Shown piece by piece: positions 14,014-59,581 of a DNA stretch of 64,000 nucleotides; position 1 is the first letter of the stretch; each line of letters opens with the position of its first letter. A program made the position numbers and the translations under genes. Source of the DNA: Traorella massiliensis (GTDB taxonomy: Bacteria > Bacillota_I > Bacilli_A > Erysipelotrichales > Erysipelotrichaceae); contig NZ_LT629967.1 of assembly GCF_900104665.1 (NCBI RefSeq), positions 152,242 to 216,241 of the forward strand, read 5' to 3'. Below the pieces are notes generated by a model. It was given only the letters and a program-made list of their open reading frames with translations, had not been told where the DNA came from and did not search any database.

Positions 14014-15339
14014 TTATGATTTTGAATATTCATCTTCTTTTTTCCATTGCATAATATCTTGTTTATATAAATCTAACATATTTTCCTGATAACCAGATAA
14101 TCCTTTACTCTTTATTAAATTACCTATATCTTTTGTCTGCGAATTTGTTAGGTTTTCAAGAATAGAGATCCTTTTTTGATCTATCTTCTTTGATGGATGT
14201 GAATAATAATAATCTTCACAAGAATAATGCCATAAATGAATTCTATCAGAATATCTTGTTTTTAATTTATCAGCGATCAGTAATCCTTCAGGATCAAAAT
14301 CACCACAATAAAGCATTTCTATTCCAGCCTCATAAATTTTATCTAATAATAGATATCCACAGTAATTTAAATTCCCATATGTACAGACAAATCCTAATTG
14401 ATCGATAATGTTCACTTTTGAAACATGTACAAGTTCTTGAAAAACTGATGGATTTTCAATAACAAGCACCCTTTTGCAACATTTACGATCAATCGAATCA
14501 ATACTGTTAAGATTTAAAGCATTTACATTCCATATTTCAAAGCGATCATAAAACCCTTGCCATCCCGAATGAATCTTTTTATCGTTATCATACGCTAAAA
14601 GATGAGCAATCATACAAAAATTATTTATGTTTTCCTGAAGAAGGCCTACCTTATAAAAAGTTAAGTTCTTATCCAATAAAGATTTCTGCATATACGAATC
14701 AGAAGTAAAATAACAAGCACCATGATACAAAAGAGTATTCATAAAGCGATGATTGTCAAAAGAGTGAGGATCTCTTGTAATTTTTGCGGCAAATACCGAC
14801 ATCTTCATATTTTGATGACTCCACATAGGAAAATTGTTCATTGCATCCATGACCTGTTCACATTCAGCAATAAATTTCTCTGGTTCTTGATGAATCTTTT
14901 TGACCATTTGGATGTATATTGAATCTTTTGAATTCAAACAATATTCAAGCCATTCACCAGCTTTTGTATTTTTATATTTTTCAGATAAATTTATAAATAT
15001 CTGATGTATTTTTTCTTCTTCTATTTGCCTGATCTTTTTATTTGATAATAAATCATCCTGAAAATACATTTGTAGCACAATATTGAAATCCGCTCCCTCA
15101 AATCGAGAGTTTTCAATGGCTTTTATAACCTGATTGAATCGTATTTTAATCATTGTTTGTTTATGAAAATTCATTCCTAAAAAATTGGCAATACATTCTC
15201 GATTATCATCATTGAGCTCAAGTAGTATCTGTCCGCCTGCATGTCCATATTTTTTTACTTTTTTCTTCCACTCTTGCATAAATGTATCAAAGTGATCAGA
15301 CTTCAAATATATACACAACTCTTCATCAGGTGATCTCAT
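14014..15339 (-). CDS. jetD: Wadjet nuclease subunit JetD
   Basis: A 441-residue protein and the nuclease of a Wadjet system, which recognises closed circular plasmids by loop extrusion and cuts them. Residues about 290-400 form a Toprim-type domain of the DUF2399 kind: VLVIENPSVF (catalytic Glu), GFVCTYGN, and YCGDFDPEGLLIADKL with the acidic DxD pair that would bind metal. The N-terminal 280 residues are helical and presumably form the arm that contacts JetC. The ATG overlaps the jetC stop (ATGA). Last gene of the operon; no clear terminator follows. All key acidic residues are intact. Confidence 0.92.
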   Translation of the reverse strand: MRSPDEELCIYLKSDHFDTFMQEWKKKVKKYGHAGGQILLELNDDNRECIANFLGMNFHKQTMIKIRFNQVIKAIENSRFEGADFNIVLQMYFQDDLLSNKKIRQIEEEKIHQIFINLSEKYKNTKAGEWLEYCLNSKDSIYIQMVKKIHQEPEKFIAECEQVMDAMNNFPMWSHQNMKMSVFAAKITRDPHSFDNHRFMNTLLYHGACYFTSDSYMQKSLLDKNLTFYKVGLLQENINNFCMIAHLLAYDNDKKIHSGWQGFYDRFEIWNVNALNLNSIDSIDRKCCKRVLVIENPSVFQELVHVSKVNIIDQLGFVCTYGNLNYCGYLLLDKIYEAGIEMLYCGDFDPEGLLIADKLKTRYSDRIHLWHYSCEDYYYSHPSKKIDQKRISILENLTNSQTKDIGNLIKSKGLSGYQENMLDLYKQDIMQWKKEDEYSKS

Positions 15340-18300
15340 ATATTCACCAGCCTTTTCTTATAGCCATTCCATTCATAGGTAATTACACTGACATATTTGG
15401 CGTTTTCTGGTCTAAATAATTCATGAATCGCCAGTCCTTTAACATTTGGATAATCACCCCATAAAACCTGTGAATTCATAATATAATCAAATTTAAACTT
15501 TGCAATTAAATCAAACATATTACTAATGTTTTTATCATCCATCCCTGCAAAGGCTTCATCGAGTGCAATCAATACTGGAGCATCCTCTCTGGCATTTTCA
15601 AATTTGGCCGCAACTGCTGAAAATAGAGGCACATACATGGACATTGCTTTTTCTCCTCCAGAGAAAGAATAAAAGGCATTATTAGTCATTTCCTTTTTTC
15701 TCTCACCTTTTTTTTCATAAAGGATTCTAAAATCAAACCAATTTCTATAATCTAATACTTTTTTCATAACTGTATGTAAAGATTCATTTGAATCCTCTTG
15801 CTGAGACAATTTCCGTGCTGTCGAAATCTTACTTCTAAAATGTGTGGAAAGAGCCTTATAATCACTATCTTTAAGTATATGAACATCTTTTGATAACAAA
15901 GCAACCAGCTTTTCAGAATTCAATTCATCCTCATTTTCTGCCTTATGGCTTTTCCATTGCAGACCCAATTTAAGCCCACTGCTCGTATTCATCTCACTCA
16001 TATAACGATTCATATTTTTTACCCATGCCTCGCTTTTTTGAATATGATGTTTAATCTTCTTTGAAATTGTATTGATCAAAACATCTTCAATAAGATGGCG
16101 ATCACTCTCGGCTAATAAATTATTCTGTATCTGAATATTATCATTCAATTTTTCTACCAGTTCAGAAAACGAAATTTTTGTTCCATGATAACGAGCATGA
16201 ATATCAAGACGCTTTGCCTCTTCATCTTCTTCAAATAAATTAATGATTCCTAAATTGTATTCCTGCAAATTGCCTCGATTCGTGTAAAAAACATTCTGAA
16301 GATCAATTGAAAGATCCTTTTTCTTAATTGAAGCATTCTTTTCATTTAAATATTTATGTGCTTCGCTGATCTGTTCAAACGATATATCAGTTAACACATA
16401 ACCCAGACTTGCTTCTTGTTTATATCTTTGATAAGCTTTTTGTTCAATCATTTCTTTTTCTGATCGAATGATATATAGTTTTGATAAATTTTCTTTATCA
16501 TTTTGCAGTTTTTCTGACATTTTCCCCAGCATCTGGTTTTCATTAGCTTTAAGTTCTTCTATTTCTTTTAATCTCATTTCAATTTCATCTAAACGTTTTA
16601 TAGTTTCTTCGAACCCGCTGTCTTTTAATTGCTTTTTAAGAACATCTAAAAGCTGACAATTCTTTTGAATTGAAAATTTAAGAGCAGAAATCTCGCCTTG
16701 AATCGCTAATAAATCATTCTCAGCCGACTCACATTGGCTGCAATAAGAAACATATAATTCATACTGATGAATATAATGAAGATGTCGTGTTATAAATTCC
16801 TGAAGGAGCATTTCATATTCTTTAAAGTCCTTTTTTCTCGCTTCAAAAACATCTTGCAGTGCATTTATACCAAGATGATCCGCTAATTCACTGATATGAT
16901 GCTGAATCATAATGATTTCATTTTGACATTTATTAATATCATCCTCAAATTTCTGAATACTTCTTACTATCGTTTCTATTTCCTTTTCATTATTTGTTAT
17001 CTTTTGTTTTATTGAATCTAGCTCATCTTTAGGGGGATAAGAATGATATTCTTTTTCCAAAATATCAAGACTGATATCAGCTTCATCTATTTTATGTAAA
17101 ACATCTTTCTGTCTTGATAATAAATCATTGATAAGGCATTCATAAGCATTTATTTTTTCCTGCCGATATTTTTCACGAGTGTTCTTTCCTATAAAACAAG
17201 ACAAATATGATTCAGAAATTGTTCCTGTAATATCCCCACTTTGATAAGTGAAATGATTAAATTTAGTATTACTGATATCAACTCCAATAGCAGAAAAAAA
17301 CTCATTAAGATCCTTATCTGCATCATGAATCCAATAAGGTTTAAGAGCAGATAAGTTTTTAGTAGTGAAAAGATATGTATCCGCCATTCCCTTACGATGT
17401 GTCAGTACTTCAAAACGATATTTTTCTTCTACTACAAGAGCATTTAAAAGGTGAGAACGCATAAAAACTTCTTCTATCTGATTTTTAGTATTCTCTGAAA
17501 TTTCATCGCCAAATTCTAACAATGTATATAAAGGCTGATATGAAATTCTTCTATCCTGTAGAAATTGTCTGTTTTCTTTCATTGCTTCATCAATTTCTGG
17601 AACAGGATCTTCCATATTCCTCCATTTTTCAAATTCACACTGAGCTTCATTTAGTTCTTTTTCAAGCTGCTGATTCATACTTTGATATTTATATTTATCT
17701 TCAATTAGATTTTTATATACTTGATTGTAAGAATCAGTTATTAACTTCTCAATATATAGATAAGAATCTTCGATATCGTATCTTCTTAAGGCATCATTGA
17801 TATTCATCATCTTATCTTTGCTCATGATCAGTACTTGATTTTGTTCGTACCATTTATGAAAGGCTTCCTGTTGATCATCAATTTTTTCATTTAAAAGCTG
17901 CACCAGTTTTTCATATTCTCTTTCAGCCTTTTCCTGATTTTGTAGTTGTTCTTCTTTTTGATCAATCAGTGCATCTTTTAATTCATTTGACTTATTTTTC
18001 TCTTTAAATAACTCTATTCCTTCTTCAAGATCTCTGATTTCCTGTTGAATACAGGATCTGGTATAAGTATAATCATATTCTTTTTCTGGATGTAACATGA
18101 CTTCTTGTTTTAAAGCAATATGTTCCGTAAACTGTATATTATCATTGATCTTTTCAAGATCATGATAATACTCTTCCAATTGAAGATAATGATCATTTTT
18201 TTGACCATCGGCTTTCTCCATATTTTCTTTAGCACGATTACATATGTCCCGTTTCTGGTCCTTTTGTTCTTCTTTCTTTTCCTTATTGTGTTCATCATCA

Positions 18301-19322
18301 GATATTTCTCTTTTTAAATCATTAATCCTATTTAAATGACCATCAAAATTTTTCTGATTTAAAACATTTCTTTCTTCTTTTAAGATCCTATCTTCATTCA
18401 TCAGCAGTTCTAGTTTTTCTTTTCCATTTTTTTGCTTTATTTCTGTATCACTGATTTCTTTATTTGCCCTTTTGATTTCTGTTTCATTTTTTTCATATTC
18501 ATCTTTGGCTTTCATATAAGCATTCAGTTTTTTTTCTAACTGAAGAGAATTGTATTGATCATAGATCTGAACAATAGATTTCGCAGAATCATAGCTTTGT
18601 CTTAACAAAAACAGCTGCTCTTCTATCTCATCCATACTTGAAATCGCTTCGCTCATCGGACGTAAATCATCCTCACTTAATGGCTGTAAGGAATTACTTA
18701 AAATGTCATGGATCATTGTCGGCTTTAATGAATTAGAAAGTTTAGGAGAGCGCACCTGCATTAGAAGATTGATGGCCTCTTTATATTCATCACGACTTGG
18801 AAAACCAAATAATGACTTATTTACACGTTCCATGTATTCTCTTTGAGAATCAATATACTGATCACCTATTCTATTTTTCAAAGCCGTTTTTGTAATGGCC
18901 AAATGGTTTTCCATTAAAAACAGATCTTTATTAATACGTCGATTATCTTCAATTACAAAATACCATGCATCTAATTGTTTATTTCTTCTTGCATGTAGAC
19001 CCATACCAATTGTTTTATACATTTCTACATCTTCTTTTTTAAATTCCAGATAGAGATATCCTATACGATCATCTCTATCACTGTCCTCTTCTAAAAGATA
19101 ATTTTCTATTCTTCTTGATTTAGTACCAAAAGAATCCAAGCGTTCACTACTTTTATTTCCGTCTAAAAGCAAAGGAATAAAACTTTGCATAGTGACTGAT
19201 TTTCCGCTTCCATTACTTCCCCTTAAAAGCATATGGCCATCTTTAAAGTAAAACTCCTCATTGACATAATACCAAAAATCAACCAGTCCTAAGCGATTCA
19301 TATGCCACTGTGCTTTTTTCAT
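15336..19322 (-). CDS. jetC: Wadjet SMC-like ATPase JetC
   Basis: A 1328-residue SMC/MukB-like motor. Walker A is GSNGSGKS at residues 35-42, the ABC signature is YSFSGGEKAMSM near 1218, and Walker B is VLIALDEAFAGMDD near 1248. Between them are long heptad-rich coiled-coil stretches (for example about 250-560 and 730-900) interrupted by a globular hinge-like block near 620-700. With JetA (kleisin-like) and JetB (KITE-like) it forms the DNA-extruding complex that senses plasmid circularity. It overlaps jetB and jetD by four bases each. No defect is visible, unlike jetA. Confidence 0.95.
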   Translation of the reverse strand: MKKAQWHMNRLGLVDFWYYVNEEFYFKDGHMLLRGSNGSGKSVTMQSFIPLLLDGNKSSERLDSFGTKSRRIENYLLEEDSDRDDRIGYLYLEFKKEDVEMYKTIGMGLHARRNKQLDAWYFVIEDNRRINKDLFLMENHLAITKTALKNRIGDQYIDSQREYMERVNKSLFGFPSRDEYKEAINLLMQVRSPKLSNSLKPTMIHDILSNSLQPLSEDDLRPMSEAISSMDEIEEQLFLLRQSYDSAKSIVQIYDQYNSLQLEKKLNAYMKAKDEYEKNETEIKRANKEISDTEIKQKNGKEKLELLMNEDRILKEERNVLNQKNFDGHLNRINDLKREISDDEHNKEKKEEQKDQKRDICNRAKENMEKADGQKNDHYLQLEEYYHDLEKINDNIQFTEHIALKQEVMLHPEKEYDYTYTRSCIQQEIRDLEEGIELFKEKNKSNELKDALIDQKEEQLQNQEKAEREYEKLVQLLNEKIDDQQEAFHKWYEQNQVLIMSKDKMMNINDALRRYDIEDSYLYIEKLITDSYNQVYKNLIEDKYKYQSMNQQLEKELNEAQCEFEKWRNMEDPVPEIDEAMKENRQFLQDRRISYQPLYTLLEFGDEISENTKNQIEEVFMRSHLLNALVVEEKYRFEVLTHRKGMADTYLFTTKNLSALKPYWIHDADKDLNEFFSAIGVDISNTKFNHFTYQSGDITGTISESYLSCFIGKNTREKYRQEKINAYECLINDLLSRQKDVLHKIDEADISLDILEKEYHSYPPKDELDSIKQKITNNEKEIETIVRSIQKFEDDINKCQNEIIMIQHHISELADHLGINALQDVFEARKKDFKEYEMLLQEFITRHLHYIHQYELYVSYCSQCESAENDLLAIQGEISALKFSIQKNCQLLDVLKKQLKDSGFEETIKRLDEIEMRLKEIEELKANENQMLGKMSEKLQNDKENLSKLYIIRSEKEMIEQKAYQRYKQEASLGYVLTDISFEQISEAHKYLNEKNASIKKKDLSIDLQNVFYTNRGNLQEYNLGIINLFEEDEEAKRLDIHARYHGTKISFSELVEKLNDNIQIQNNLLAESDRHLIEDVLINTISKKIKHHIQKSEAWVKNMNRYMSEMNTSSGLKLGLQWKSHKAENEDELNSEKLVALLSKDVHILKDSDYKALSTHFRSKISTARKLSQQEDSNESLHTVMKKVLDYRNWFDFRILYEKKGERKKEMTNNAFYSFSGGEKAMSMYVPLFSAVAAKFENAREDAPVLIALDEAFAGMDDKNISNMFDLIAKFKFDYIMNSQVLWGDYPNVKGLAIHELFRPENAKYVSVITYEWNGYKKRLVNI

Positions 19323-20440
19323 ATCTCGCCCTCTCTTTCCATCATACCACCTGTTATTTTCCCAACAATCGGATAGATTAATACCTGATCGCTTTCTTCA
19401 ATAAAACCATACCGGATCATTTCTTTCATTACGTTCACTGCCAACTGTTTTTTCCCTTGTTCCCGATATTTTTTAGGAAGTTTTTCAAAATATGGCTGAA
19501 TAGCATTTTCACATAGTCGTAAAAAACTATCTTTTTCCATATATATTTTCTCATCAGATAGAGGTTTTAATTTATAAGCAGCTACTTTGCGAACAATCTT
19601 TTCATTTACAAACAATATCAAATCAGAAATGGTATTATTAGCAGGAAAACTTTTTCCCATTGAACTCTCTTCATCAACGCTGATATAGGCACTTGTTTTA
19701 TGTACATGTAAAGTAGAATTAAAGTAAATTTCAAAATCATGACTGATTTGATTACGATAATTACGAATATACAGAAAATCTTCATTTTCATCATCGTTGC
19801 GATAGACTCCAGGTGATAAAAGAAGCTTTCTATAAATTCTTTGTCTTCGAACGACTCCTCTATCTTCGTCTACATTGATCCACTCACTATTTTCGAAATC
19901 TTCTGGTTTTTCATACTCCATGACATCACGAACAAAGTTACGAATAAAATAACGTGACGTTCCTGTATTTTCATATAGAACTTCTGTTGAGATATCTTGT
20001 GTAAAACGTTCTTCGTCCCCTTCTGTCTGAATCAGCATTCCTTGAGAAACACAGTATTTTATAACCTTTACAATTTGTCTTCTTGCGGTAAAATTTGTCC
20101 AGTCAAAAGATTCTTCACTGAATTGCGCATGAACATATTCTGTCAAAGATGACAACACAAATTGCTCTTCTTTTTCCTTTTCCTCTAAAAACATCAGTAC
20201 ATAACACAACATTTGATATTCACGCACACTTTGAAATTCCTGAATTCCCATCCATGCTTCCGCTTTTCCTGGTATCTTTTCAAGTTTTATCATCTGGGGA
20301 TTAATGACGATGATATAACCCAGTTTCTCCTGCATGAATTTCTTTATTTCCTTTAGATTATCTTTGATCATGTAAAATAAGGCCGAATCGTCTTTTTTTA
20401 AAATCCATCTGCGACTCATTAATTCCTCAATTGCCTTCAT
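19319..20440 (-). CDS. jetB: Wadjet subunit JetB
   Basis: About 373 residues. The family role is the winged-helix KITE-like subunit bridging JetA and the JetC heads. The opening RRWILKKDDSALFYMIKD and LGYIIVINPQMIKLEKIPGK fit the JetB of the type III group (DUF6063-like) better than the DUF4194 JetB of type I; this rests on memory of the families. I set the start at the ATG at 20440, seven bases after GGAGG, so it overlaps the jetA stop by 14 bases. The open frame reaches back to 20500, but that part lies within jetA and lacks a ribosome site. Confidence 0.88.
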   Translation of the reverse strand: MKAIEELMSRRWILKKDDSALFYMIKDNLKEIKKFMQEKLGYIIVINPQMIKLEKIPGKAEAWMGIQEFQSVREYQMLCYVLMFLEEKEKEEQFVLSSLTEYVHAQFSEESFDWTNFTARRQIVKVIKYCVSQGMLIQTEGDEERFTQDISTEVLYENTGTSRYFIRNFVRDVMEYEKPEDFENSEWINVDEDRGVVRRQRIYRKLLLSPGVYRNDDENEDFLYIRNYRNQISHDFEIYFNSTLHVHKTSAYISVDEESSMGKSFPANNTISDLILFVNEKIVRKVAAYKLKPLSDEKIYMEKDSFLRLCENAIQPYFEKLPKKYREQGKKQLAVNVMKEMIRYGFIEESDQVLIYPIVGKITGGMMEREGEI

Positions 20441-21920
20441 AAAATTCCTCCATTCTGAAGTGAATACGAAAAGACGGCATATAAAAATCTCCATCTTCAC
20501 ATTTTACTTCGCACATTTTCAGATGGCTGTCATCAATCCAATAATCAGCTCCCCATTCACATTTGCCTGCATGATTTAAATCAGCCAATCCTCTGCTTAA
20601 AAGATTTAAAAGCAATTTACGGGTATATCCATCAATCATCGGCAATTCTGAAAAATCAATCGTATTTTCTTTCATCAGTTCCATGATAATATTTTGATCA
20701 TTTTTGATTCTATCGAGATGCTGCTGACGCTGTATTTCTTTTTCTAATGTATAATCCTGTGCTGGAAGACGTTTGCTTCTATTTTTTATGATTCTTATCC
20801 TTGGCTCCAAATCATAGTAAGTAGGATCTTCATCATAGACACCACTATCAATACTATCCGTTTCTCTCACATTTAGATTTTTCAAATGCAAACAGGTATC
20901 TACTCCAAAAACCATGGAGCTCATTTTATGCGCTTCATTGATATTTTGACACATGCCGAATATATGAGCGATATGACGATATTCTTCTTTCCGATTCGCA
21001 CCTATATTATACAATTCACCGATTTGCTGGGCATATCTTGTAATTTTGCGAATGATATCACTTGTAATATCACTCATTCTTTCTACTTCACTAACACTAT
21101 TTTCACCAACAAACCAGTTATGAATACTTTGCCATCTTCCCTTTATATTTTCATAAATTTCTTCTTTTTCAATCTTTCTCTCAATTCTAGGAATTGATAT
21201 TTCATATTCACAAACTTTATCAAATATCGTCATGATAGAAGTTTCATCGACTTCTTTGATGTATTCTTCTAAAACAAGAGCCTGTTCCTGTAATCCTTTC
21301 ACAAAGTTCCGAAGATATTAAATAATTTGATCTTTAAATATTAAAAACTCATTGGTTTTCATCATTTCTTCAGCACGAGCACTACTCAATGTTCGAATAT
21401 AATCCTGATAATTACGATTTAATCGAATAAAGTCATTATTTAAATCGTTCCACCAAATACTTACTTCAGAGATATCTTTTTGAGAAATCTCTTTTATTTC
21501 ACAAATCCGTTTATGAATCCTTTCAAGTAAAGAAGGCTCTAATGAAGCTCCTTCTACTTCTAAATTTTCAAGACGAATCATCATTCGTTCTATTTCAATG
21601 GTATAGTCGCTAAGCTGATAGCGGTATTTACGATTTTTAAATTCTTCAATCGTCAGCACCTTCGTTGTATCTTGCATAGCCTCAAGATTTTTCCATTCCG
21701 TCAATTGACTTAGATCCGACTGACACAATTCAAGCGTATAATCTGGAAATAATCCTGTCTGTATCATCATTTCATAAACATCTTCTTTATGCATCCAGTA
21801 ATGAATTTTTTCATACTCTTCATAAAAATATCGAATAATTACACGATATCTTTCAACATTTTCAGCACGTAAATAATTGATTTCAGATAATGGTTTTAAT
21901 AATTTCTCATTTATTTTCAT
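20427..21920 (-). pseudogene. jetA: Wadjet subunit JetA interrupted by one in-frame TAA
   Basis: The frame from the ATG at 21920 (ribosome site GAGGAAG) runs 200 codons to TAA at 21320-21318 and then continues without shift to a stop at 20427, 497 codons in all, the expected JetA size. Around the stop the reading is FLIFKDQII-stop-YLRNFVKGLQ, which flows as one helix, so a single base change (for example CAA to TAA) explains it. JetA is the kleisin-like linker of the SMC complex. A GTG at 21302 could restart translation but has no ribosome site. The operon is probably inactive unless the stop is suppressed, restarted, or a sequencing error. Confidence 0.88.
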
Positions 21921-21978: not shown

Positions 21979-22275
21979 TTAAAAACTTATTTCATCATCA
22001 ATCTGAGCAATTACATCATTTTTCACAATAAAGCAAACAGTAATTTTCTGTCTTCCCTCAAATGTATCATAAATACGTCCTGCACTTCGAGTCCCTTTAG
22101 CTACTGAATAAACACTATTCGCAACATAGCCTACAGTAGCTCCTGCCTCCGTTACGACCTTGATGGCTTCTTCATCATAGTCATTATTCACATCTTTTTC
22201 TAACCATAAATTCTGTCCCACCTTAAAAATCTCAGTTCCAAAATAATGACTTGTACCTACAATGGTAATAAACAT
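21979..22275 (-). CDS. Stand-alone HIRAN-domain protein
   Basis: A 98-residue protein made of one HIRAN domain: the core FITIVGTSHYFGTEIFKVGQ, KDVNNDYDEEAIKVVTE, GATVGYVANSVYSVAKGT and a final strand pair. In larger proteins HIRAN binds DNA 3' ends or damaged forks, as in HLTF; stand-alone bacterial copies have no fixed role. It lies 58 bases upstream of jetA on the same strand with no terminator between, so it is the first gene of the Wadjet operon. I use the ATG at 22275, behind GGGAGG; the frame opens at 22296. Its part in Wadjet activity is inference. Confidence 0.83.
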   Translation of the reverse strand: MFITIVGTSHYFGTEIFKVGQNLWLEKDVNNDYDEEAIKVVTEAGATVGYVANSVYSVAKGTRSAGRIYDTFEGRQKITVCFIVKNDVIAQIDDEISF

Positions 22276-22365
22276 ATATATCCCTCCCACCATCATTATA
22301 ACAAACTCCCTGTTAACTTATTTTAACACTCACAAAAATATGTTAGAATAAAACCAGGTGATAAT
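22276..22365. promoter_or_regulatory. Divergent promoter region with candidate operator
   Basis: Ninety bases separate the WYL regulator and the HIRAN-Wadjet operon. A reverse-strand TATAAT lies at 22300-22295, close to the HIRAN start. The inverted repeat GTTAA-(6)-TTAAC at 22312-22327 covers where its -35 region would be. A TAGAAT at about 22343 serves as a likely -10 for the regulator. This is the arrangement of a locally autoregulated divergent operon. Confidence 0.6.
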
Positions 22366-23331
22366 ATGAAACAGATAACATTAGCGATTTATGAAATCAT
22401 GTGTCATGAATCAGATGAAGAGCATCCTATTTCAAGACATAAAATATTAGAGCTTCTTGAAAAGCGTTATGATCTAGAAATTACCCGTCAAACCTTGAAA
22501 AAGCATTTTGACCTGTTAGCAGAGCATGGAATTGAAGTTGAATATGATAGCATTAAAAAAGCATATTATCTAAATTCACGTGAATTTGAAAAATCAGAGA
22601 TTCATCTATTATGTAATGCTGTCTATTCTTCACATTTTATTCCCGAATCAGATTCAAAAAAATTAATCAAAAAATTATTGGATACACAAAGCAAATATGT
22701 TTCACAAAGTTTTAATAATAATGTCTATGTAAAGAATGAGCGTAAATCTTTAAATAAACAATTCTTTTATAATGTCGAAACCCTTCTTGAAGCCATCCAA
22801 AACAAAAAAGCTGTTTCTTTTCTATATATGAAATATAATCATCAGAAACAGCTAGTACCTAGAAGAAAAGAAAGATATTTGATTCATCCCTATCATATTA
22901 TTTATGCGAATGAAAATTTTTATCTGATCTGTCGTAATGATCATTATGATAATTTATCGCATTATCGAATCGATCGTATGCAAGATATACAAATAACTGA
23001 TATAGTTTTAAAGAAACTTGGTAAGGATTTTGATCCTTATGAATACGCCAAAACAAAGATTTTTATGTATGGCGGGGATGAAGAAATGATTTCGCTTCTT
23101 TGTGATGATGTCATATTCGATGATATCATCGATCGTTTTGGAAGAGATGTCATGATTCAAAAAGCTGGCCATGATCACTTTCAGGTTTATCTGAAAAGTT
23201 CAAGACAAGGCATTCTTTATTTTGCTTTACAATATGCTGCTCACTGTCAGATCATGACACCCGCTTCTTTAAGAAATGAAATGATCCAAATATTACAAAA
23301 CACTTTAGAGAAATATCAATCTAAACGATAA
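22366..23331 (+). CDS. WYL-domain transcription regulator
   Basis: A 321-residue regulator. Residues 1-75 are a winged helix (HPISRHKILELLEKRYDLEITRQTLKKH is the helix-turn-helix, split over the recognition helix), 140-235 a WYL domain (AVSFLYMKYNHQKQL, then RKERYLIHPYHIIYANENFYLIC and LSHYRIDRMQDI), and the rest a WCX extension. WYL regulators bind nucleic-acid ligands and commonly control phage- and plasmid-defence loci. It is transcribed away from the HIRAN-Wadjet operon and is its likely controller. Its 3' end overlaps the convergent gene by 11 bases. Confidence 0.93.
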   Translation: MKQITLAIYEIMCHESDEEHPISRHKILELLEKRYDLEITRQTLKKHFDLLAEHGIEVEYDSIKKAYYLNSREFEKSEIHLLCNAVYSSHFIPESDSKKLIKKLLDTQSKYVSQSFNNNVYVKNERKSLNKQFFYNVETLLEAIQNKKAVSFLYMKYNHQKQLVPRRKERYLIHPYHIIYANENFYLICRNDHYDNLSHYRIDRMQDIQITDIVLKKLGKDFDPYEYAKTKIFMYGGDEEMISLLCDDVIFDDIIDRFGRDVMIQKAGHDHFQVYLKSSRQGILYFALQYAAHCQIMTPASLRNEMIQILQNTLEKYQSKR

Positions 23332-24762: not shown

Positions 24763-25788
24763 TTATTTTAAAAGCCGATTATATTGCTGATAAAGAGGGG
24801 ATGAATATTTTAAAAGATGGTCATGAGCAAGCCTATATACAATGAATGATTTTGGATATTTAATTTCATCATCTATCTTATATTCTTTTTTAACTACGAA
24901 ATCATGATAGTATTTATTTTCTACCATCCACTGAAATGCCTGTTCATCCGCTTTTATTTCAATATCTCTCTCATCTTCAAATGAAATCAGGCTCATTGAT
25001 CTTGCTTTATTAAAATCACTTTTACAATGAGCTAATTCATGTAACAATGCAAAGTAAATGTCTGCAATTCTTTTATGCTTATAGGTAATATAAATGGCTG
25101 GCATATTACGATGTACTTTAAAAGCACCTCTGATTTTAGAACCTGGAAGGTCTTCCTGAATCACCAATGCAATTCCATTTTCATTAAATACTTTTACTAA
25201 TTCCTGTTCATCGAATATATTCTGATTTGCTTTTTCATGAATATATCGTACAAGATATAAAATATTATCTTTTGTGTAATCCTTAACATCCTGTGTCAAT
25301 GTTTCACGATAACATTTTTCAAGCCAGAGTAAAAGTAATTCCTTTCGATCATTTTTACTTTTATAGAATAAATGGGATTCTAGATCATTGAGTTGTTCTG
25401 GACTGCTTACACGTAAATATTTAAGTATATCTTTAATAATTTCAATGGGTTCATAGATATCTGTAAAACGTATCCATGTTTTTTTTATAAGAGTTTTATA
25501 ATCAAATTTATTTAAATATTCTTTTTCACTCAAATGTTCTTTTTTTAAATAATGATCGATCTCATTTTCAATATGAAAATTGGATTCCATTCTATAGATA
25601 TAGTCAATAGGAATACCTGTAACAAAAGAAATCGAATCAATGATTTGAGCACTTAATTCACTTTTTTTAGATAAAATATCTATCAAATGTTTAGGTGTAA
25701 TATTGATTCTGCTCGCAAATTCTTTATTTGAAATATGATTCACTTCCAAATATTCTTTTAAATAATCTGCAAAACGTATTCTTCCCAT
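24763..25788 (-). CDS. HigA-like antitoxin with ImmA/IrrE protease domain
   Basis: A 341-residue fusion. Residues 5-65 are an XRE-type helix-turn-helix (KEFASRINITPKHLIDILSKKSELS) and about 180-300 an ImmA/IrrE metallopeptidase domain with the zinc motif HELAH near 247 and the downstream acidic segment EIKADEQAFQWM. The first domain would bind the operon promoter and the toxin. The second may cleave a partner protein in response to a signal, by analogy with ImmA. It follows the toxin gene by four bases. Full length for this antitoxin subfamily; zinc ligands intact. Confidence 0.87.
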   Translation of the reverse strand: MGRIRFADYLKEYLEVNHISNKEFASRINITPKHLIDILSKKSELSAQIIDSISFVTGIPIDYIYRMESNFHIENEIDHYLKKEHLSEKEYLNKFDYKTLIKKTWIRFTDIYEPIEIIKDILKYLRVSSPEQLNDLESHLFYKSKNDRKELLLLWLEKCYRETLTQDVKDYTKDNILYLVRYIHEKANQNIFDEQELVKVFNENGIALVIQEDLPGSKIRGAFKVHRNMPAIYITYKHKRIADIYFALLHELAHCKSDFNKARSMSLISFEDERDIEIKADEQAFQWMVENKYYHDFVVKKEYKIDDEIKYPKSFIVYRLAHDHLLKYSSPLYQQYNRLLK

Positions 25789-25792
25789 ATGC

Positions 25793-26116
25793 TCACCCCT
25801 TTCTTATTTTCTTAAAATCTTCATAATGATTCATTGAAATATATTCCAAGACAGCAACATTTTCTTTATCTCTTATGGACAAAATCAAACGAATAACGCC
25901 TCTATTTCTATTTAAATTAAAACTATAATATCCATTCAATTCATATTTCAATGCTTCAAAACCATACATATTTGAAATAGGATTCTTTTTCATTTCATGA
26001 AAAGATGAACATTGTCGAATATGATTTTTTATCATGTCTAATGTTTTTAATTCCTTGTAATGTTTTTGAATGCGCTTTTCACTCTTTTTATACAAATTTC
26101 CATATTCAATATACAT
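25793..26116 (-). CDS. HigB/RelE-family toxin
   Basis: About 107 residues with the RelE/HigB fold: helical N-terminus, MYGFEALKYELNGYYSFNLNRNRGVIRLI (the central strands with the Arg and Tyr positions used in mRNA cleavage, shown split here as SFNLNRNRG and VIRLILSIRDK) and the end YISMNHYEDF. Such toxins cut mRNA on the ribosome. It sits directly before the HigA-like gene, the reversed order typical of higBA. The start is uncertain: ATG at 26116 has a weak AAGAGA site, while the GTG at 26131 has none and abuts the palindrome. A long palindrome precedes it. Confidence 0.82.
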   Translation of the reverse strand: MYIEYGNLYKKSEKRIQKHYKELKTLDMIKNHIRQCSSFHEMKKNPISNMYGFEALKYELNGYYSFNLNRNRGVIRLILSIRDKENVAVLEYISMNHYEDFKKIRKG

Positions 26117-26139
26117 CTTTCTCTTAATCACTTAACTGC

Positions 26140-58201: not shown

Positions 58202-58301
58202 GGTGATTTCCATCACAAAACAGTTCAATAAAATCCCACAAATTGGTCTAGTAAAATTACACAAAATAGTATGATAACAATAGAAAGATGGTGAGATTAT
58301 T

Positions 58302-59581
58302 GTGGAATATAAAAATAGGATCGTAGATGCATAGTTAGATCTTAAATTAGAAAGTTTTGGTGCTGCTTTAATTGTTGGCTAAAGGGCTGTGGGAAAACTA
58401 CTACAGCTAAGCAGAAAGCAAAAAGCATCGTTGAATTTCAAGATGAAGATGTTCGCGATAACTTACTAGCAGTCGCAAACAACCAACCATCTAGGCTACT
58501 TATAGGTGAAACTCCAAGATTATTCGATGAATGGCAAGATGCACCTAAAATTTGGGGGGGCTATTAGAAAGTCCATTGATGATCGTCAAGAAAATGGCTT
58601 ATACATATTAACAGGTTCAACATCACAAAATGTGAACACACCTCATATGGGAACCCAAAGAATTTCTACCTTAAAAATGTATCCTATGAGTTTGTATGAA
58701 AGTCTAGAATCAAATGGAAGCGTATCTTTGATTGATCTATTTAATCATCCTGACCAATTTGATGGATGCCAGTCCTATATAGACCTAGACGATATAATTT
58801 TCGCAATTTGCAGGGGAGGATGGCCAAGAGCTATTAACAATAAAACGAAACAATCTCAACTAGAAATTGCCAAGGATTTATTCAAACAGACATATACAGT
58901 AGATATTTCTAACATTGCTGATGTCAAACGAAATCCTATGTGGTCAGAAACAATATTAAGATCATATGCTAGAAATATATGTACATTAGCAAAAAAAAGT
59001 ACAATACTAGCAGATGTTGAAGCAACTTGTTCAATCTCAAAATCAACTTTTTTTGATTATGAGAGTGCTTTAGAAAAACTTTATATTATTGAAAATATTC
59101 ATCCATGGTGTCCCTCAATCCGATCAAAATCTGCTATTCGTGCTACAATAAAATTAATTTTATTGATCCATCAATTGCTGTAGCAGCATTAGGTCTTAGT
59201 CCTGAATATTTTAATTTAGATTTTAAGACACTGGGTTTTCTATTTGAGTCATTATGTATCAGAGATTTAATTATTTATTCTTCTAAATGTAATGGCAAAG
59301 TCTCCTATTATCATGACCGATATGGACTAGAAGCTGATGCAGTACTACATTTAGAAGATGGAAGGTATGCATTGATAGAAATCAAATTAGGAGCGAATGA
59401 AATTGATGACGGTGCACGTCATCTTTGTGAAATCGAGAAACTAATAAATGACCATAATAAAATAGAAAGGCAAGTACCTATTCGTTTACCAGATTTAAAA
59501 ATTGTACTTACTGGAACAGAATATGGGTATCGTAGAGATGATGGAGTCTTAGTAATTCCAATCGGATGTTTAAAAGATTAA
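58302..59581 (+). pseudogene. Decayed ATP-binding DUF4143 protein
   Basis: Combining frames gives a protein of about 420 residues of the AAA_14/DUF4143 family: VEYKNRIVDA, then KGCGKTTTAKQKAKSIVEFQ (Walker A), RLFDEWQDAPKIWG (Walker B), ILTGSTSQNV, and the tail DRYGLEADAVLHLEDGRYAL and VIPIGCLKD. It is broken by TAG soon after the start (58329), a one-base deletion before the Walker A loop (58378-58383), one extra G in a run of seven G at 58554-58560, and a one-base deletion near 59145-59152. Four independent defects mean it is dead. A different, intact family member lies at 36340. Confidence 0.93.

Follow-up and report, generated by a model that had tools for sequence, protein, structure and literature searches.

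Does a stop codon in jetA mean that a gut bacterium has lately lost its Wadjet system, can the gene still be read, or is the stop itself a mistake in the record? The question arises in an Erysipelotrichales gut bacterium, where the stretch of DNA analyzed here (64,000 nucleotides, hereafter the window) carries a type II Wadjet operon, jetABCD, on the minus strand at 14014-21920 (Table 1). We regard a recent nonsense mutation in jetA as the likely answer.

A Wadjet operon with one interruption

The order jetA-jetB-jetC-jetD is identified in sequence by PADLOC matches to JetA2, JetB2, JetC2, and JetD2, and the operon is the only Wadjet copy in the genome (assembly of 2.6 Mb, 9 contigs, 99% complete). 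Between 21920 and 20427 on the minus strand, jetA consists of 200 sense codons, TAA, 296 sense codons, and TGA. A sequence-only reading of this DNA had reported a single in-frame TAA at 21320-21318, with a GTG five codons later (21302), and translation confirms both. The C-terminal piece matches PADLOC JetA2 at positions 208-494 of 496 (E=4.5e-90), and both pieces cover consecutive parts of Pfam DUF2397; because the JetA2 and DUF2397 matches are consecutive, we are dealing with one gene rather than two chance open reading frames (ORFs).

The same reading held jetB, jetC, and jetD to be motif-complete, and all three give full-length profile matches with no internal stops. JetB matches PDLC00542 (E=1.9e-134, model positions 8-377 of 388). 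The 1328-aa JetC ORF contains Walker A (GSNGSGKS), signature (FSGGEKAM), and Walker B (LIALDEAF) motifs, and JetD has its Toprim-type nuclease domain (DUF3323 and DUF2399; motifs VIENPS and GDFDPEG). The first 14 bases of jetB overlap the end of jetA, and jetB is served by a strong Shine-Dalgarno sequence of its own (at -11.8 kcal/mol); expression of jetBCD is therefore probably still possible despite the stop. We class the locus as a type II Wadjet by descent and not as a working one; the continuous JetA kleisin (DUF2397) of such systems is broken here by the TAA at codon 201. It is important to remember that gene-presence scans could count this locus as a complete Wadjet, since both JetA halves match the model strongly.

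The gene set is the same as in the type II Wadjet of Neobacillus vireti (JetABC, PDB 9qe0/9qe1). Window JetA matches the 9qe0 JetA in sequence and fold (E=1.4e-72, residues 7-488), and window JetC matches its counterpart over the full length (E=4e-181), whereas window jetA is interrupted by the TAA at codon 201. The nearest relative, from Erysipelotrichales bacterium C59_1 (L010), has an identical jetABCD order and protein identities of 67% (JetA), 56% (JetB), 49% (JetC), and 44% (JetD). It differs in that its jetA is uninterrupted, with CAA at the site, and in that WYL and HIRAN homologues were not detected at its locus.

A divergent WYL-domain regulator adjoins jetABCD in three genomes (window 21979-23331, L015 6608-8030, and L025 7829-8809), with a small HIRAN-domain ORF between it and the operon in the window and L015. 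These genes are a candidate regulatory module for Wadjet, which was not detected in the remaining fetched Wadjet loci. Also beside the Wadjet region, at 24763-26131 on the minus strand, lies a two-gene pair made up of a helix-turn-helix/peptidase-like ORF resembling PADLOC PD-Lambda-2_B (E=8.5e-18) and a 112-aa ORF upstream of it; the pair may form a second module of the defence or toxin-antitoxin type.

Table 1. Features of the Wadjet locus, in window coordinates
Feature	Position	Strand	Basis
jetA, interrupted (kleisin, DUF2397)	20427..21920	-	PADLOC and Pfam profiles, 9qe0 match
In-frame TAA, codon 201 of the 497-codon jetA	21318..21320	-	Sense codon in 34/34 relatives covering the site
N-terminal JetA fragment, 200 aa	21321..21920	-	PADLOC JetA2 positions 1-201, E=4e-91
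C-terminal JetA fragment, 291 aa if started at GTG 21302	20427..21302	-	PADLOC JetA2 208-494
jetB, intact (KITE, DUF2398)	19319..20440	-	Profile matches, no stops
jetC, intact (SMC/MukB-like ATPase)	15336..19322	-	Full-length profile match, no stops
jetD, intact (DUF3323 and DUF2399 Toprim nuclease)	14014..15339	-	Full-length profile match, no stops
HIRAN-domain ORF directly upstream of jetA, possible operon member	21979..22296	-	Profile match
Divergent WYL-domain regulator, candidate	22366..23331	+	Profile match

Codon 201 in relatives and the age of the change

A scan of bacterial genomes returned 35 jetA relatives, 34 of which cover codon 201, and it is a sense codon in every one of them. 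The possibility raised at the outset that close relatives share the stop is therefore not borne out, and the orthologue alignment proposed with it gives varied sense residues: position 201 is free to vary among Q, M, S, N, E, K, D, I, and L, although it follows a conserved stretch and directly precedes an invariant YL. In L010 the residue is Q, encoded by CAA, and CAA to TAA is one transition. As far as the sets searched reach, the stop is confined to this genome and, although the stretch around it is conserved, its own position is tolerant. No related jetA was found in viral contigs, plasmids, or phages, and the exact site sequence, with either base, had no match in the viral contigs.

How long has the stop been there? 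Synonymous sites are saturated against L010, which makes dN/dS uninformative, and the protein was compared instead. Of the columns that almost all the other sequences conserve, 32 lie before the stop and 13 after it, and window JetA departs at none of them. Departures from the majority residue found only in the window or only in L010 stand at 6:6 before the stop and again at 6:6 after it, and mean outgroup identity after the stop is 0.393 for window JetA versus 0.398 for L010. Given equal departures in both halves and no invariant residue lost, little time would have passed since the stop arose. On this protein comparison the post-stop half is undrifted, which would mean that the change is recent, that it is an error, or that this part is still translated; a long-standing pseudogene is rejected, there being no decay after the stop. 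Elsewhere in the window, an AAA_14/DUF4143 ATPase gene (58230-59581, plus strand) has decayed into pieces that occupy two or more frames and carries several stops and frame breaks; unlike jetA, it looks like an older pseudogene.

Base rates come from 315 species genomes of the order Erysipelotrichales, 24 of which carry JetB of a Wadjet operon. Damage to jetA or jetC was found in 3 of these 24 operons, and the window operon is the only one of the three with a single clean lesion. Apart from the window, with its one TAA, jetA is interrupted in G058 alone (L031/L066), where a frame break in jetA accompanies a TAG in jetC; jetC is in pieces in G058 and G040 (G040:C68), and jetB is broken in none of the 24. 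A further locus, G045:C2, keeps a shredded jetA remnant and nothing more. The damage in G058, G040, and G045 may partly reflect faults of draft assembly. Neither JetA nor JetB is present in the four congeners, which makes the operon accessory within the genus.

Weighing the explanations

Could full-length JetA still be made? The sequence-only reading had offered ochre suppression and split subunits as alternatives. In the former, a tRNA would decode TAA to give the complete protein; the frame is indeed open beyond the stop, and the site accepts the many residues listed above. However, a search of the genome for tRNA genes found 45, each with an ordinary anticodon, and none of them can decode TAA. 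We reject suppression on this tRNA set and consider it scarcely credible, although it would regain standing if the search had overlooked a suppressor.

The second alternative, a split JetA that still functions, would have two polypeptides arise, either by a restart at GTG 21302 or by leaky termination, and then assemble. Only five codons separate the stop from the GTG, the C half is fully conserved, and the downstream jetB is intact. Against this, no relative is broken at that site (which also leads us to reject a conserved split gene), and the Shine-Dalgarno sequence of the GTG is weak (-3.5 kcal/mol, compared with -5.6 for jetA and -11.8 for jetB). In addition, SMC complexes as a rule have a covalent kleisin joining the two SMC heads. 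An AlphaFold2 model of read-through JetA (mean pLDDT 77, pTM 0.40), in which the domains are credible but their arrangement is not, places residue 201 within a predicted helix (191-222) and a predicted helix-and-strand C-terminal domain (391-489) wholly past the stop. The weak Shine-Dalgarno sequence and the stop inside a predicted helix make natural splitting unlikely; a break inside a helix of the kleisin that links two SMC heads would most simply mean loss of function. We therefore judge a split, working JetA to be very unlikely, and the broader claim that JetA exists as two non-covalent polypeptides through stop and restart, such that more than one chain can make up a Wadjet kleisin, to be more improbable still.

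The main rival is a base-call or assembly error, in which case jetA would really be uninterrupted and the system functional. The one base is the sole departure, constraint is unrelaxed throughout jetA, and jetBCD are intact; that decay is absent apart from this base also counts against a recent nonsense mutation. On the other side, the lesion is a base substitution, which relative to L010 is a transition, and not a homopolymer indel, the assembly has few contigs and high completeness, and the gene at 58.2-59.6 kb, with its several lesions, indicates that decayed genes occur in this genome. We consider an error unlikely, and favor a type II Wadjet operon with a recent nonsense mutation in jetA. 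Of the original proposal that one recent base change switched the system off, the recent single change is well supported, given the intact orthologues, the CAA of the nearest relative, and the lack of post-stop decay; the off state and the openness to plasmids are inferred from the literature.

Consequences for plasmid defence

Under the nonsense reading, translation would stop at residue 200, and the truncated JetA would retain the N-terminal winged-helix (dimerisation) part but lose both what remains of the middle domain and the winged-helix domain at the C terminus. By analogy with MukF and kleisins, the lost C-terminal domain would cap the JetC head. The SMC ring would then be unable to close and loop extrusion would fail; JetD would not be activated, and small circular plasmids would be left uncut.

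In Bacillus subtilis, suppression of plasmid transformation requires all four Jet proteins (PMC10586767), so this strain's system is probably inactive. Similarly, deletion of jetABCD in Clostridium cellulovorans increased conjugation about 10^5-fold (PMC12287153). That deletion and the Mycobacterium smegmatis EptABCD null are likewise disabled Wadjet systems (PMC10586767, PMC12287153), and those alleles were experimentally tested, whereas the natural nonsense allele in the window is known from sequence alone. By analogy, Wadjet protection has probably been lost; the broken JetA predicts loss of small circular plasmid restriction, and we would expect the strain to be open to plasmids. Counting against lost protection, a Rep_3 plasmid replication gene was not found in the readable contigs of the genome, which leave aside four of 1.5-2.3 kb, and a Rep_1 profile search gave no match, but its controls gave none either.

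A nonsense jetA was not reported in the listed titles and abstracts on Wadjet with pseudogenes or premature stops. The locus does not reveal a new mechanism, and the explanation is mostly an ordinary one, a broken copy of a known defence system. If it is correct, this operon would capture an anti-plasmid system shortly after its loss in a gut commensal, and would provide a naturally occurring null with which to ask whether small plasmids enter once Wadjet is lost.
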